Shown: in pieces, positions 28,929 through 35,502 of the stretch | How the letters are laid out: each line of letters opens with the position of its first letter | Position numbering within the stretch: the stretch's first letter is position 1 | IMG/VR virus record: IMGVR_UViG_3300032287_002319 | Span: 1 to 35,502 of that record | Length of the DNA: 35,502 nt | Reading direction: 5' to 3' (one strand) | Source of the DNA: a virus | Position numbers and translations under genes: made by a program | Notes under the pieces: model-generated | What the model was told of the DNA's origin: nothing | Database searches by the model: none | The model's input: the letters and a program-made list of their open reading frames with translations, nothing else

Positions 28929-29163
28929 TAATTTAAACATCACGGTTGATCAAGTTAATCATCCACAACACTATACAACAGATCCTTCTGGAGTTGAGTG
29001 TATTCAGATTACTCGTCATCGTAACTTTAATATTGGTAATGCATTTAAGTACTTGTGGAGAGCAGGACTTAAAGATGAATCAAAAACTATTCAAGATCTT
29101 GAAAAGGCAATATTTTATATCAAGGATGAAATTAATAGACTAGAGGGAAAGTATGTCAACTGA
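28921..29163 (+). CDS. DUF3310 domain protein
   Basis: This 80-residue protein has the DUF3310 signature: an N-terminal NHPQHYT, then ECIQITRHRNFNIGNAFKYL and WRAGLKDE, then a paired helix ending DEINRLEG. Family members are common in phages and are often annotated as nucleotide kinases, but the enzymatic activity is not established. Two adjacent ATGs (28918, 28921) fit the GGGAAG just upstream; I chose 28921. It overlaps the membrane microprotein at its start and the small terminase gene at its end (11 nt). Confidence 0.8.
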   Translation: MSDNLNITVDQVNHPQHYTTDPSGVECIQITRHRNFNIGNAFKYLWRAGLKDESKTIQDLEKAIFYIKDEINRLEGKYVN

Positions 29164-29689
29164 AGAAGATCTAGTTAAACACCTTGATCAGGTAAACCAA
29201 GTTGTTGCAGAGTATCTTAAGGGTACTGACCCAACAAGAATTTCAAAAGAATTAGCAATCCCACGCACCCGTGTTGTAGAACTTATTAATGAGTGGAAGG
29301 TTATGGCTTCTGCTAATGATGCTATTCGTGCCCGTGCAAAAGAAGCACTTGCTGCAATGGATGCACACTACAGCAAGCTTATTACAAAATCTTATGAGGT
29401 TATTGATGAGGCATCAATGACTAATAATCTTAGCGCAAAGACTCAAGCAATTAAGCTTGTTGTTGATATTGAAAAAGCAAGAATTGATATGCTTCAAAAG
29501 GCAGGACTTCTTGAGAACAAAGAACTTGCAGAAGAAATGGTTGAGATTGAAAAGCGTCAAGAAACTCTTGTCGCTATCCTTAGAGACATTGCTTCAACTC
29601 ACCCAGATATTCGTGACTTAATCATGTACAGACTTTCTTCTGTTGCAAAAGATGGGGAAGTGATTACAGTTGTCCACGATGTTCAATGA
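29153..29689 (+). CDS. terS: Terminase small subunit
   Basis: This 178-residue protein is expected to form a ring that recognises the phage packaging site and stimulates the large terminase. An N-terminal helix-turn-helix is visible at residues about 12-47 (VVAEYLKGTDPTRISKEL then RTRVVELINEWK), followed by a long helical oligomerisation region (NDAIRARAKEALAAMDAHYS then KAGLLENKELAEEM). It lies immediately before and overlaps the large terminase gene, as in most tailed phages. The ATG has a GAGGGAAAG ribosome site. No other function is likely. Confidence 0.8.
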   Translation: MSTEEDLVKHLDQVNQVVAEYLKGTDPTRISKELAIPRTRVVELINEWKVMASANDAIRARAKEALAAMDAHYSKLITKSYEVIDEASMTNNLSAKTQAIKLVVDIEKARIDMLQKAGLLENKELAEEMVEIEKRQETLVAILRDIASTHPDIRDLIMYRLSSVAKDGEVITVVHDVQ

Positions 29690-31460
29690 TTTTTTTGAGG
29701 CACTTAAAAATAATAATTTTGAGGAAATGCCAGTAGATGCAAAGACATTTGTTGAAGGTGAAGCATACCTAAACCAACCACCACTATCTGATATTCAGTA
29801 TGACATTGTTGAAGCAATGAGCCAAATCTACAGAGAAGAAGACCTTGTAGATATTTTGGGGCCAGAAGAAGGTCATCGTTACTACAAGAAGTATACAAAG
29901 AACGAAGTAATCTTGCAACTGGGCAAGGGATCTGGAAAAGACTTCACATCAACAGTAGCATGTGCATACATAGTATATAAACTACTATGCCTTAAAGACC
30001 CAGCAAGATACTTTGGTAAGCCTGCAGGAGATGCCATTGATATTATCAACGTGGCTATTAACGCTCAGCAGGCAAAGAACGTATTCTTTAAAGGATTTAA
30101 AACCAAGATTGAGAAGTCTGAATGGTTTGCAGGAAAGTATAATGCTAAGGCTGAAAGCATTGAGTTTGATAAAGCAATCACGGTTTACTCTGGTCACTCA
30201 GAAAGAGAATCACACGAAGGTTTGAACCTTATCCTTGCGGTGCTTGATGAAATTTCTGGGTTTGCACAAGAAGTTGGAACAGGAAATGATCAAGGTAAGA
30301 CTGCGGATAATATCTATAAGGCTTTCCGTGCATCTGTTGATTCTCGTTTCCCTGATTTAGGTAAGGTTGCATTGCTTTCCTTCCCCCGTTTTCCTGGAGA
30401 CTTTATCTCTCAAAAGTATGAAGACTCAATTATGGAAAAAGAAACAATTACTTATACTCACCGTTTTATTATGAATCCAGATTTTCCAGATGACCTTGAA
30501 GGAAACTATTTAGATATTGCTTGGGATGAAGATCAGATTGTTGCATATAAATATCCTGGGGTATTTGCATTAAAAAGACCAACATGGGTAGTAAACCCAA
30601 CAAGAAAGATTGATGATTTTAAACTAGCGTTCTTTACAGATATGGGTGATGCCATGCAACGCTTTGCTTGCGTACCAACATTTGCATCTGATGCTTTTTT
30701 TAAGCAAAAAGATAAACTTGAAAAGTGTATGACACTAAGAAATCCTATTGACAATAACAAAAGGTTTGATGAATCATTTGTGCCAGATCCAGACAAGGTT
30801 TATTATGTTCATGCTGACCTTGCACAAAAACACGATAAATGTGCAGTAGCAATTGCACACGTTGATAAATGGGTAAACCTACAAGTAGTTAAAGACTATG
30901 AACAAGTTGCTCCAATTATTATTGTTGATGCAGTGGTTTGGTGGGAGCCAAAGGTTGAAGGCCCAGTCAATTTATCTGAAGTAAAACAATGGATTCAAAA
31001 CCTTCGCAGACAAGGCTTTAATCTTGGAATGGTTACATTTGACCGTTGGCAATCATTTGATATTCAGCAAGAACTACAAGCCGTAGGAATAAGAACTGAT
31101 ACTGTTTCTGTTGGCAAAAAGCATTATGAGGATCTTGCAATGATGATTTATGAAGAGCGTGTTGCTATGCCACGCATCCCATTACTGCTTGATGAAATGT
31201 CTGAACTTAAGATTATTAATGATAAAAAGGTGGATCACCCACGTAAAAAATCTAAAGATCTATCTGATGCTGTAACAGGTGCGGTATTTGGTGCGCTATC
31301 TCATACCCCCAAGAATACTAATATAGAGATTGATATTCATACCTGGTCACGCTCAACGTCGCAACGACTTGCAGAGCAAGAACAAGGTGTGGTAAAATTG
31401 GATAGTCGTGAAATTCCTGAAGAAGTTCAGGATTATCTTGACAACTTCAATTTATTATAA
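29679..31460 (+). CDS. terL: Terminase large subunit
   Basis: This 593-residue motor packages DNA into the prohead and cuts it. The ATPase domain has Walker A LQLGKGSGKD (82-88, Asp in the last position) and Walker B LILAVLDE (D190, E191). The C-terminal RNase H-like nuclease domain has its acidic residues at D380 (YVHADLAQKHDKCAVAI), D455 (VTFDRWQSF) and D530 (DLSDAVTGAVFGA). The start is either ATG 29679 or TTG 29670; GGGGAAG at 29654-29660 favours the TTG slightly. The gene overlaps TerS. Unusually, portal and capsid genes do not follow; secreted proteins do. Confidence 0.95.
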   Translation: MFNDFFEALKNNNFEEMPVDAKTFVEGEAYLNQPPLSDIQYDIVEAMSQIYREEDLVDILGPEEGHRYYKKYTKNEVILQLGKGSGKDFTSTVACAYIVYKLLCLKDPARYFGKPAGDAIDIINVAINAQQAKNVFFKGFKTKIEKSEWFAGKYNAKAESIEFDKAITVYSGHSERESHEGLNLILAVLDEISGFAQEVGTGNDQGKTADNIYKAFRASVDSRFPDLGKVALLSFPRFPGDFISQKYEDSIMEKETITYTHRFIMNPDFPDDLEGNYLDIAWDEDQIVAYKYPGVFALKRPTWVVNPTRKIDDFKLAFFTDMGDAMQRFACVPTFASDAFFKQKDKLEKCMTLRNPIDNNKRFDESFVPDPDKVYYVHADLAQKHDKCAVAIAHVDKWVNLQVVKDYEQVAPIIIVDAVVWWEPKVEGPVNLSEVKQWIQNLRRQGFNLGMVTFDRWQSFDIQQELQAVGIRTDTVSVGKKHYEDLAMMIYEERVAMPRIPLLLDEMSELKIINDKKVDHPRKKSKDLSDAVTGAVFGALSHTPKNTNIEIDIHTWSRSTSQRLAEQEQGVVKLDSREIPEEVQDYLDNFNLL

Positions 31461-31480
31461 AAAAACTAACAAGGAGAAAA

Positions 31481-33187
31481 ATGAATTCATTTAAGAAAAT
31501 TGCCCTAGGTCTTGCTGCAGCTTTGACCTTTGGCGTTACTTCGGCACTTCCGACAAGTGCTACTGTAATTGGTCCAACACTTACGATTGACTCTGCTACA
31601 GATGCAATCAATGCTGGTGAGACTGCAACTGCGGTAGTTACATTGTCATTTATTTCAGAAACAGCAGCAGATACAGCAACTGTATTGTCTGCTATGTTCT
31701 CACAGCCAACAGGCGCAGCAAAGAATGCAACAATTACTTTGCTTGAGACAACAACTTCAACAGTAGCAATCGCTGCAGGAAATCTTTCAGCAGACGTTAA
31801 CTCAACAGTTGGTACACCAGGATATGTGACCGCAAAGTTCACACTTTCATTGGTTGCTCCAACAGTTGCTGGTACATATGAAGCAAGAATCATTACAACT
31901 AAGCCATCAACTGGACCATCCGTTGCATGGACAATTACAGTTAAGGCAGCGGACATTGTTCCTTCTGCAGCAACAACAACTTCAATTCTTAATAAGGGTG
32001 AAGTTACAACTGCAACAGTAGATGCTTCAGTTTATGCACCAAAGGCAACTTCAACAGATGCAGCAGCGGTAATCGTTGTTACACCTAAGAATGCAGCAGG
32101 CGGAGCAGCAACTGAATCAATTCTTGCAACAGTTTCAGGAACAGGCTTGATCGGTTATGGCACAAATGCTACAACTATCTCTGCTCTTGGTCGTGCACTT
32201 GTTATTCCTACAGGCAACTACATTGGCGTATTTGCTGACGGTACAGCAGGAGTTGGAACAATTACTCTTACAACACTTACAGGTACAGTACTTGCAACAG
32301 AGCAGGTAACATTCTACGGTGATATCGCAACAATCGTTGCTACACCAGTTAAGTCTGTTATCGCAGTTGGTGCAAATACAAATACAGTAACAGCAGTTGC
32401 AAAGGATGCTTCTGGCGTAACAGTCGGAGCAGGAACCCTTTATGCATACTCATCAGACGTAACAACAGTTTCTGATTCAGCAACAGCAGCAACAATCGTT
32501 GACGGCGTTGCAACATTTACAGTCACTGGTGTTAAGGCTGGCGGAGTTGCTGTCACAGTTAAGTCAGGTACAATTGCATCTGCTCCAGTCGCTACTCGTG
32601 TAGAGGCAGCAGCAGCAACAGTTAAGGTTTCATTTGATAAGGCAACATACCTTCCAGGTGAAGCAGCAACTATCAAGGTTCAGGTTCTTGATGCAGCAGG
32701 TCTTCCAGTATCTGGAAAGACACACGCTAACCTTTTTGCAACAGGTGGAATTGTTTCTACTTATGCATTTGGTTCAGGTTCCGATGTTCTTACAGCAACA
32801 TCAGTCACAACTGATACTGAAACTGTAAAGTCATACAAGGTATTCATGCCTTTGACAGAGAACACTGTTACACTCACAGCAACTGGTGGATCATCTCTTC
32901 CAGTAGCAGGTCAGGTTGCAGTAACAGCATCAGCAGTTGTTTCAAACACTGCTGCAAAGGCTGCTACAAAGGCTTCTGAAGATGCTGCTAAGGCTGCAAC
33001 AGAGGCAACTAACGCAGCACTTGCTGCTGCAAAGGCTGCTGACGAAGCAACTCTTGCTGCACAGGCTGCATCAGATGCAGTTGCTAAGTTGTCTGCAACA
33101 GTGTCAGCAATGATCGCTTCACTTAAGAAGCAGATTACTTCACTTACCGCTCTAGTCGTAAAGATTCAGAAGAAGGTAAACGCTTAA
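31481..33187 (+). CDS. Secreted S-layer-like / Ig-like surface protein
   Basis: This 568-residue protein has a clear Sec signal peptide (basic MNSFKK, hydrophobic IALGLAAALTFGVTSA, cleavage after PTSA, about residue 27). The mature part is Ala/Thr/Val-rich beta structure with at least two Big-type Ig-like repeats: one at about 275-385 (VGANTNTVTAVAKDASGVTV) and one at about 385-490 (VSFDKATYLPGEAATIKVQV). The last 80 residues form an Ala-rich coiled coil ending KKQITSLTALVVKIQKKVNA. This is the style of bacterial S-layer or cell-surface proteins. Codon use is richer in C-ending codons than in neighbours, like the major tail gene. AAGGAG precedes the ATG and a strong terminator follows. A secreted protein beside the terminase is unexpected for a virion gene. 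Confidence 0.65.
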   Translation: MNSFKKIALGLAAALTFGVTSALPTSATVIGPTLTIDSATDAINAGETATAVVTLSFISETAADTATVLSAMFSQPTGAAKNATITLLETTTSTVAIAAGNLSADVNSTVGTPGYVTAKFTLSLVAPTVAGTYEARIITTKPSTGPSVAWTITVKAADIVPSAATTTSILNKGEVTTATVDASVYAPKATSTDAAAVIVVTPKNAAGGAATESILATVSGTGLIGYGTNATTISALGRALVIPTGNYIGVFADGTAGVGTITLTTLTGTVLATEQVTFYGDIATIVATPVKSVIAVGANTNTVTAVAKDASGVTVGAGTLYAYSSDVTTVSDSATAATIVDGVATFTVTGVKAGGVAVTVKSGTIASAPVATRVEAAAATVKVSFDKATYLPGEAATIKVQVLDAAGLPVSGKTHANLFATGGIVSTYAFGSGSDVLTATSVTTDTETVKSYKVFMPLTENTVTLTATGGSSLPVAGQVAVTASAVVSNTAAKAATKASEDAAKAATEATNAALAAAKAADEATLAAQAASDAVAKLSATVSAMIASLKKQITSLTALVVKIQKKVNA

Positions 33188-33202
33188 TAAGCCAACAATT
33201 TA

Positions 33203-33233
33203 GGGGGTTAGCCAAGTGCTAGCCCCCTTTCTT
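33203..33233 (+). terminator. Rho-independent terminator after the S-layer-like gene
   Basis: A 10-bp stem (GGGGGTTAGC at 33203-33212 with GCTAGCCCCC at 33218-33227, one G-T wobble) closes a CAAGT loop and is followed by TTTCTT. It lies 15 nt after the stop codon and ends the transcription unit that includes the terminase. Confidence 0.88.
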
Positions 33234-33276: not shown

Positions 33277-35502
33277 ATGTGGCCCTGTATTCAAAATATC
33301 CTGCTAAAAAGTGGGTTGGTGGCTTTTTTGGTGGGACTTTGGTTCATCCTGTGTCCAACAGATCATGCACATGCAGATAATGAAGTTACATCTCAGGTAT
33401 CTTCTTCAGATACATCTACTGCAACAATAAATTCATCTTCAACAGTAATAGTCCACACATCAACAGAAAGTGCCACAGCCATAATTGAGGTAGCAAATGC
33501 TACAATTTCTCAGGCTGAAACTACCACGGCACAGGTAACAAGTAACGCAACAGCCATTACAAGCCCTACAGAGACCATTACAGCCACTATCACACAGGCT
33601 GGTACATCAATTGCTCAGGCTCAGACAGTAGTAGATAGTGCTACTGTGGCTGTCAATAATGTTATTTCTGCTCAGAATTCCCTGGCTCAAGCGGTAGAAA
33701 CTCAGACTGCCAGATCACAAACGGTAGCCACAGAGTCAGCAACAGTCCTATCTTTAACAGATAGTATGACAGTTCTTAATACACAAATAGATAGTCAGAC
33801 AGCAACTGTTGTATCAGACAGCGCAACAGTGACTAACTTTCAGGGAGCAGTTGCTCTGGTACAAAACCAAATACGATTAGAGAACTCTGGAAATCCACAA
33901 ACCACTGATCTTCCAAAAGACGATGACTGGGCATTTTTAATGACTTTACCGTATGCTTTAAAACTTGGTGATCGGACCTATACAGATGTTTATGTTGCTA
34001 CAAATGGTTTGATATCTTTTGGACAGCCACAAGGTTGGGGAGGAAATGCTCCAGCAGTTTATGTTAATTTCCGTGACTGGTGGAATGTTGATCAGCAAAC
34101 ATATGTAAGATACTCAACAACAATTAATTCATTATTAGTTGAATGGAATGTTGTTCCATTTGCTACCCATGCCCCAGGTACATCAACTACACGGATGACA
34201 TTTGATGCAGACGTAAACCCAATTGATGGATCTTGGAAAGCAGATATTTCTTCTATTGGAATGAATGGAAATAATACAAACAATCCAGTTCAAGTTGTTC
34301 AGTATGTTAATAATCAAATGCAAAGTATTTCTATACCGCTAGCATCTGGAACAAATTCAAGTAATTTTACAGCACATATTGATAATACTGGATATACTCC
34401 TTATACACCAGTACCCGCAAATACAAATCTTGCAGAAGCATTAACAACTGCACAAAATAATTTAACAACGGCACAACAAACTTTAACTGCAGCACAGGCA
34501 GTTCTTGCTGGTCTTATGTCTGATAAGAATGCATTACAATCAGAAATTAATCAAGCACAACAATTACTACAAGCAGCCCAGTCTAACTTAAATACAGCAA
34601 ACCAGCAAGTAGTGTACTGGCAGGGACAGGTTGAAACAGCCAAATCACAATTAGATTCAGCAATTATACTTATAACTCAAGCAGTTGAAGCCATGGGATC
34701 GTCTGTTAGTGCTGCAGATTCAATAGTTCAAAATACTTTATCTGCAGAAGAAGCAGTTAGACAAGCAGCAGCAAGAGTGGAAGCCCAAAGGCAATTGTCT
34801 ATTGCTGAAGAAAATGCAAATGCAGCAGAGGCTGCAGCAGCAAGAGCAGAAGCAGCAGCGCAGGCTGCACAGCAAGAAGCAGAAAAGGCTGAAGCAGATC
34901 GTGTAGAAGCAGAAGAGGCTGCAGCACAAGCAGAAGCAGAGGCACAGCAAGCAGAAGAAGATAGAATTGCTGCAGAAGCAGCAGCAGCAGAAGCCCAGGC
35001 AGAGGCTGAGGCTCAACAAGAAGCAGAAGCAAAAGCGGAAGCAGACAGACTAGAAGCAGAGGCCGAGCAAGCAAGACAAGCAGAAGAAGATGCTAAGGCT
35101 GAGGCAGCAGCACTTGAAGCAGAAGCAGAGGATGCTAGACAAGCAGAAGAAGATGCAAAGGCTGAAGCGGAAGCAAAAGCACAAGAGGCAGAAGATGCCA
35201 AGGCAGAGGCTGAAGCAGCACAAGAAGAAAAAGAATTAAAAGAAATAATTGCAGATGCAAAAAATGGTAAAGAATTAACCGAAGAACAAAAAGATGTTGT
35301 AGTCGCAGCATTAGTAGCAGACTTAAAACCAGGTGAATCAATTTCTGCAGCAGAGGTAAAGGCATCTGGAGTTTCATACGCAGACCTTCCACCAGAAACA
35401 CCAGTAGCAGTTAGAACTTCTGAGTCTGGAGAGGTATTAGTTATTACTGCAGAAGTAGCAGCAAATGTAGAACTTGTTCAAGACCCAGGGGCATTGTTGC
35501 AA
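33277..35502 (+). CDS. Secreted coiled-coil surface protein (partial, runs off the window)
   Basis: This reading frame is open to the window end (742 codons seen). It begins with a plausible signal peptide: SGLVAFLVGLWFILC hydrophobic core and AHA cleavage before DNEV, near residue 36. Residues about 40-205 are Ser/Thr/Gln-rich with heptads. Residues about 207-383 form a globular beta domain with LPYALKLGD, VYVATNGLISFG and a YVNFRDWW segment, similar in pattern to nidogen-like extracellular domains. Residues about 385-650 are coiled coil, very rich in Ala and Glu from 488 on. A final mixed domain (SISAAEVKASGVSYADLPPE) continues off the edge. The ATG at 33277 directly follows GGAAGG, so spacing is poor and an alternative start at TTG 33316 is possible. 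Confidence 0.65.
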   Translation, partial: MWPCIQNILLKSGLVAFLVGLWFILCPTDHAHADNEVTSQVSSSDTSTATINSSSTVIVHTSTESATAIIEVANATISQAETTTAQVTSNATAITSPTETITATITQAGTSIAQAQTVVDSATVAVNNVISAQNSLAQAVETQTARSQTVATESATVLSLTDSMTVLNTQIDSQTATVVSDSATVTNFQGAVALVQNQIRLENSGNPQTTDLPKDDDWAFLMTLPYALKLGDRTYTDVYVATNGLISFGQPQGWGGNAPAVYVNFRDWWNVDQQTYVRYSTTINSLLVEWNVVPFATHAPGTSTTRMTFDADVNPIDGSWKADISSIGMNGNNTNNPVQVVQYVNNQMQSISIPLASGTNSSNFTAHIDNTGYTPYTPVPANTNLAEALTTAQNNLTTAQQTLTAAQAVLAGLMSDKNALQSEINQAQQLLQAAQSNLNTANQQVVYWQGQVETAKSQLDSAIILITQAVEAMGSSVSAADSIVQNTLSAEEAVRQAAARVEAQRQLSIAEENANAAEAAAARAEAAAQAAQQEAEKAEADRVEAEEAAAQAEAEAQQAEEDRIAAEAAAAEAQAEAEAQQEAEAKAEADRLEAEAEQARQAEEDAKAEAAALEAEAEDARQAEEDAKAEAEAKAQEAEDAKAEAEAAQEEKELKEIIADAKNGKELTEEQKDVVVAALVADLKPGESISAAEVKASGVSYADLPPETPVAVRTSESGEVLVITAEVAANVELVQDPGALLQ
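34740..35230 (+). repeat. Ala/Glu-rich coiled-coil repeat region
   Basis: In the + frame this stretch is dominated by Ala, Glu, Gln and Lys in imperfect heptads, with recurring units such as AEAEA, RQAEEDAKAEA and EDAKAEAEA. It makes a long, highly charged helix of the TolA type. Two nearly identical units, RQAEEDAKAEA, occur about 22 residues apart, which suggests local duplication. The opposite strand is open as a consequence and should not be annotated. Confidence 0.85.

Follow-up and report, generated by a model that had tools for sequence, protein, structure and literature searches.

Why should a bacteriophage carry, immediately behind its terminase gene, what looks like a bacterial surface-layer protein? 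The question is raised by ORF568 (positions 31481..33187, + strand, ATG start, 568 amino acids), a gene in a stretch of 35,502 nucleotides, here called the window, which forms part of the IMG/VR virus record IMGVR_UViG_3300032287_002319. Its product emerges below as a secreted homologue of a surface (S-layer-like) protein of the Nanopelagicales (acI), the main freshwater actinobacteria.

The ORF568 gene and its product

The protein begins with MNSFKKIALGLAAALTFGVTSALPTSA, a classical Sec signal peptide (residues 1-27, 31481..31561, + strand), which is kept in all homologues and is of the host type xFK[KR]IAL..., the host counterpart reading MSTKTTFKRIALVTVAALGFG. In the AlphaFold2 model a short N-terminal helix is followed by a string of Ig-like beta-sandwich domains (residues 30-487, 31568..32941, + strand) and a single helix spanning residues 490-567, with a mean pLDDT of 69.8 that makes the packing of the domains uncertain. 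This helix forms an Ala-rich tail (residues 490-568, 32948..33184, + strand), which ends in SLKKQITSLTALVVKIQKKVNA with the final motif KIQKKVNA and corresponds to an exchangeable module of host type. The third domain (residues 289-370) is matched by the Pfam family Big_1 with an E-value of 2e-4, short of the family cut-off, and residues 280-376 superpose on domain 5 of the S-layer protein SbsC with a Z-score of 10.3 (92 residues, 2.7 A, 27% identity). The Ig string as a whole has Bacillus anthracis Sap as its top Foldseek match, with other Ig strings similar, and its folds are of the SbsC, invasin and intimin type. The first-pass annotation had described a Sec signal, Ig-like repeats and an Ala-rich helical end, and all three were recovered by sequence analysis, modelling and the SbsC superposition. 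As such folds are common, the structural matches are best taken as pointing to a type of architecture only. Neither an SLH domain nor another anchor family is listed for ORF568 in Pfam or NCBIfam, and the helical tail might serve as an anchor of a kind not yet described. Single-sequence searches with ORF568 against host genomes, phage isolates, solved structures, PHROGs and NCBIfam were empty or weak.

A gap of 20 bp, holding a Shine-Dalgarno sequence AAGGAG (31471..31476, + strand), separates the gene from the terminase stop codon, and a strong intrinsic terminator with an 11-bp stem (33202..33228, + strand, -24.6 kcal/mol, z -4.6) closes the unit on its 3' side. Searches found no consensus sigma-70 promoter near ORF568 on the + strand, and no Rfam RNA or tRNA in the 35,502-nt window. 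An antisense open reading frame at 31447-31956 was rejected as a gene, its overlap with ORF568 being almost complete.

A homologous surface protein in Nanopelagicales

The host link surfaced only through the C-terminal end of the protein. As this end is conserved in the ORF568 family, we scanned 84,980 prokaryote genomes with a degenerate DNA pattern for ...KIQKKV[KR]A followed by a stop codon, and recovered 55 matching stretches, of which about 50 belong to freshwater actinobacteria, against a chance expectation that we estimate at 1-6. The pattern is nearly confined to Nanopelagicales, and among the tagged genomes are those of Ca. Planktophila lacus MMS-21-148, IMCC19121, IMCC26103, IMCC25003 and LanE-43, all of them closed chromosomes. 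The tag also occurs in lake MAGs that go under the names Bifidobacterium breve or Streptomyces griseus (L187, L190, L194, L208, L236 and others), which are probably mislabelled Nanopelagicales.

The tagged host proteins share the layout of ORF568, with a signal peptide, an Ig-like body and an Ala-rich helical tail. In hmmsearch runs a profile of the phage proteins aligns end to end with the host protein L219 (E-values of 1e-110 to 3e-110, positions 4-568 against 5-612), and likewise with those of IMCC26103 (9e-92) and P. lacus (2e-86). Full-length homology extends to Ca. Planktophila lacus, IMCC19121, IMCC26103 and IMCC25003, each with a closed chromosome, and to many more hosts; the LanE-43 protein matches in the tail only, its body having diverged. 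With about 39% identity to the host protein over its full length, ORF568 is, by homology, a phage-borne member of a Nanopelagicales family of secreted surface proteins with Ig domains. The proposal that it mimics a host S-layer protein is thus right at the level of homology, and the suggested search against actinobacterial surface proteins did yield homologues, with E-values down to those given above.

Each of the first eight host genomes searched, five of which are closed chromosomes, has one match, and the gene is usually single-copy in a wider sample of the family as well. A homologue was detectable in 33 of 121 sampled family genomes, a proportion that is probably due to poor assembly of the islands that carry it or to divergence of the body. 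In the islands examined, which are surface-glycan islands, the gene stands behind a sigma-70-family (ECF-sigma) gene, and nearly all of them have a Wzy_C-type O-antigen ligase gene downstream. ORF568 adjoins a terminase and has neither neighbor, which marks it as a phage-borne homologue and not a chromosomal gene. The sigma-70-family protein encoded ahead of the host gene has a long C-terminal extension (L274, L277, L373, L374) and may regulate the surface-protein gene.

Codon use further characterizes both versions. With host ribosomal proteins as the reference, ORF568 has the highest codon adaptation index of the 18 genes in the window (0.757), equalled by the tail-tube gene (0.752), and it deviates by z +8.2 from an amino-acid-matched null drawn from the rest of the window. 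The fraction of C-ending codons among NNY codons is 0.40, as against 0.31 in the terminase gene, and 100 phage homologues have a median index of 0.724, as against 0.562 for the terminase. The observation that ORF568 shares its C-rich codon use with the tube gene is thereby borne out, and the recommended comparison with host ribosomal genes finds it the most ribosomal-protein-like gene of the window. The first-pass annotation had considered high expression as likely as recent transfer. As the host homologues share the bias, with indices of 0.66-0.73 on par with ribosomal proteins and neighbor genes at 0.48-0.52, the bias points to expression, and recent transfer of the whole gene was rejected as its source; ORF568 is likely to be strongly expressed, to judge from its codons. 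Recent transfer holds for the tail segment alone, in whose DNA phage-host exchange is seen.

Taken with its genomic context, this codon use fits an abundant, glycosylated and phage-exposed surface-layer protein in the host. From these features we infer that the host protein may form an S-layer or serve as a phage receptor; a literature search did not find Nanopelagicales and S-layers treated together.

The carrier phage and its post-terminase cassette site

The window encodes, in order, a tape measure protein, tail proteins, DnaB, a primase, SSB, a DnaE-type polymerase, RecA, a Cas4-type nuclease, RuvC and the terminase, an arrangement collinear with that of Streptomyces phage Yaboi (Stanwilliamsviridae). 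The large terminase subunit (29670..31460, + strand), assigned by PHROG terminase families, is 53% identical over its whole length to the Stanwilliamsviridae terminases. Adjoining it is a gene of family phrog_9507 (29153..29689, + strand, E 3e-47), possibly for the small terminase subunit, which shares 40% identity with the gene preceding the Yaboi terminase (found via L082). The carrier therefore appears Stanwilliamsviridae-like, as judged by the collinear replication block and the homologous terminase and not by a genome-wide measure.

It had been argued that ORF568 occupies a place where portal genes are expected. In Yaboi, however, what comes after the terminase is an HNH gene, then a hypothetical gene and tRNAs, and not a portal gene, so the portal-slot argument was rejected on this gene order. 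Nor is the place unexpected, since within this phage group it is a conserved site for secreted proteins. Starting from the terminase, which forms the fixed left border of the slot, we surveyed 67 loci with enough downstream sequence: 24 hold a member of the ORF568 family (type A), 13 a type B and 20 a type C protein, giving 57 with a secreted protein of one of three families. The other 10 have none, so the slot protein is not essential.

Type B proteins are about 540 residues long and type C proteins shorter, and most share the MNSFKK signal peptide. The type B profile had no match among the previously collected host proteins; a search of 296 genomes of the order matched it to surface proteins of four Nanopelagicales-order genomes, whose genes stand at the sigma-factor locus of the type A homologues in all three cases with readable upstream context. 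For type C the host match is a secreted protein encoded on a chromosomal contig of the genome G119 (L369). As all three types match host chromosomal proteins, the slot is, on this sequence evidence, a cassette site for alternative homologues of secreted proteins of the host chromosome. Examples of type B are L310:6803-8416 and L334:6805-8418, among others, with host homologues L363-L366; those of type C (L296:6807-7799, L359:5890-7272 and others) are short and fast-evolving, with WNKxNPKAKV-like tails that also occur on a fifth of those of type A.

A probable single capture and repeated exchange of the tail

At least 429 IMG/VR loci carry a relative of ORF568, and most of the first 80 have it directly behind the same terminase. 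In one phage group, whose terminase is about 56% identical, the relative is next to a thioredoxin-like gene, which precedes it in L046, L049 and L053 (5490-5795). A copy with 86% identity (L078:6001-7713) is found in an unrelated phage of 136 kb (G125), whose terminase, portal and polymerase belong to different families; a T4-like Gp23 was not found there, in a search without a working control. This phage also encodes glycine-rich fibre-like proteins. Between contigs, ORF568 identity tracks terminase identity only weakly (Spearman 0.27), which argues that the gene recombines. It is under purifying selection, with a dN/dS of 0.24, a value affected by recombination, as against 0.11 for the terminase. 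In an unrooted tree all phage versions form one clade (support 1.0) among the host sequences, which indicates a single probable capture from a host in the ancestry of the clade, followed by phage-to-phage spread through recombination. Within the matches listed, the median identity is 77% for phage versions and, among alignable pairs, 36% for host proteins.

The tail has a different history. Among the matches listed, phage bodies reach no more than 42% identity with any host body, the last 80 residues reach 87% identity with hosts, and the last 45 are identical at up to 41 of 45 positions to hosts with bodies about 39% identical. At the DNA level the tail of L066 matches that of host L235 at 123 of 135 positions (91%) and that of L111 matches host L245 at 120 of 135 (89%), which indicates that the tail alone was exchanged between phage and host, apparently fairly recently. 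Moreover, phage proteins with 95% identical bodies bear different tails, and between L002 and L011 DNA identity drops from about 95% to about 55% within the tail. Alignments thus show a C-terminal tail that has, by all appearance, been exchanged separately from the body and that matches different host lineages. Several phage tail types, KIQKKVKA and LVNKLLKK among them, have host counterparts. For the WNKKNPK type, borne by about a fifth of the phage (type A) proteins, no host match was found in 121 family genomes with a DNA pattern or in 251 order and 395 class genomes with a profile.

Proposed function

We favor, with a probability of about one half, a scenario in which the phage re-covers or replaces the host's variable surface protein with a coat of its own and thereby masks receptors. 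ORF568 would be made in quantity during infection, as its codon use suggests, exported by Sec by virtue of its signal peptide, and anchored at the host surface via a helical tail like that of the host protein, as the host-matched sequence of this module implies. At the surface it would dilute or cover the hypervariable host protein, the layer in which competing phages likely find their receptors. Such a coat could shut out superinfecting phages and spare newly released virions a futile attachment to the lysing cell and its remains. The tail module would adapt it to the surface of a particular host lineage, and the uniform body might be the phage's own, non-receptor face. The limited detection of the host gene among family genomes, the WNKKNPK tails with no host match in the genomes searched, and the 10 of 67 relatives with no secreted protein in the slot count against replacement of the coat. 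More tentatively, and at somewhat less than even odds, we consider the gene part of a dedicated coat-swap module, in which a conserved phage layer replaces the hypervariable host layer, only the C-terminal anchor is swapped with the resident host gene to adjust it to a host lineage, and the slot is a general cassette site for whichever family suits the host.

The phage might instead maintain the envelope, supplying surface protein after host shut-off to keep the cell sealed in fresh water until lysis, so that masking would be unneeded. The layout and high codon adaptation shared by the phage and host proteins agree with this, as do tails that match host lineages, since the phage version need only be compatible; we nevertheless consider it unlikely, for it leaves unexplained both a uniform phage body distinct from every host body and the 10 of 67 relatives with no slot protein. 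Less probable still is a soluble decoy, shed to bind competing phages by their tail fibres at a distance from the cell: a secreted, probably abundant homologue of the likely receptor layer would suit this role, but the conserved, host-matched C-terminal module points to attachment and not release, and the body is close to no particular host protein (at best 42% identity among the matches listed). A place on the particle or tail, for camouflage or adhesion to the host, seems slightly more doubtful again. Virions often bear Ig-like domains, structural proteins figure among the viral fold matches, and the codon use is like that of the tail-tube gene; against this stand the conserved host-type Sec signal peptide, the full-length homology with a host surface protein, the position of the gene in the packaging and replication arm away from the structural genes, and the presence of the same gene in an unrelated phage. 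Finally, a passenger gene, gained by recombination and kept with no defined role at a cassette site with turnover, was already disfavored and is very improbable given purifying selection (dN/dS 0.24), codon adaptation, and occurrence on hundreds of contigs in one old clade with repeated adjustment of the tail.

Relation to known systems

The nearest counterpart of the proposed phage coat is the host protein itself (L211 of P. lacus MMS-21-148, L216 of IMCC26103 and L219, the closest listed), which has the same signal type, Ig-like body and high codon adaptation, a similar Ala-rich helical tail ending in KIQKKV[KR]A, and homology from end to end. The phage version differs in being encoded behind a terminase, in a body about 39% identical to the host's and uniform among phages, and in its swapped tail. 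SbsC of Geobacillus stearothermophilus and Sap of B. anthracis likewise consist of strings of Ig-like domains, but for ORF568 Pfam lists no SLH anchor and its long helical tail is different, so that the likeness is one of common fold and not of demonstrated descent. The superinfection-exclusion proteins Spackle of T4 and Llp of T5 are small and each bind a single target. Like them, ORF568 is an exported protein of a phage for which a role at the host envelope is proposed; unlike them, it is a whole coat protein of host type.

A parallel closer in setting is the OM43 methylophage Melnitz, a lytic phage that infects a streamlined bacterium of aquatic habitats, whose Gene_23 is annotated as a putative S-layer-type protein and is postulated by its authors to protect against superinfection (PMC9004378). 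We liken the two by annotation; for ORF568 there are in addition a host orthologue, an apparent single capture, tail swapping and a cassette slot. The idea of superinfection protection having already been voiced for Melnitz, what appears new here is that the gene has a host orthologue, that its tail is exchanged and that it occupies a cassette site.

Nanopelagicales rank with the most abundant bacteria of fresh water, and few of their phages have been isolated; to our knowledge CRISPR spacers are unusable for predicting hosts in this group. Their microdiversity has been attributed to phage pressure (PMC10202952). The present analysis names a likely receptor-layer gene in these hosts, finds that hundreds of phage contigs carry their own version of it, and provides a host-matched sequence tag, so that receptor identity, superinfection exclusion and host prediction become testable for Nanopelagicales phages.

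Other exported proteins beside the slot

A second secreted protein, an Ala/Glu-rich long coiled coil, is encoded at 33277..35502 (+ strand), where it runs off the window, and often adjoins ORF568 in relatives. It matches TIGR04320 (SEC10/PgrA surface-exclusion domain) weakly, with an E-value of 3.6e-4 that is far under the cut-off, and a search of 10 host genomes, run without a positive control, found no relative. Complete relatives have a Gly-rich stretch followed by an SRGGRRW-type end. In relatives this region also holds a block rich in exported proteins, including a secreted subtilase, a PstS-like binding protein, a proteasome-like Ntn hydrolase and a CHAP amidase (L006:11192-12079, L006:12835-13704, L081:10742-11326, L054:12913-13692).
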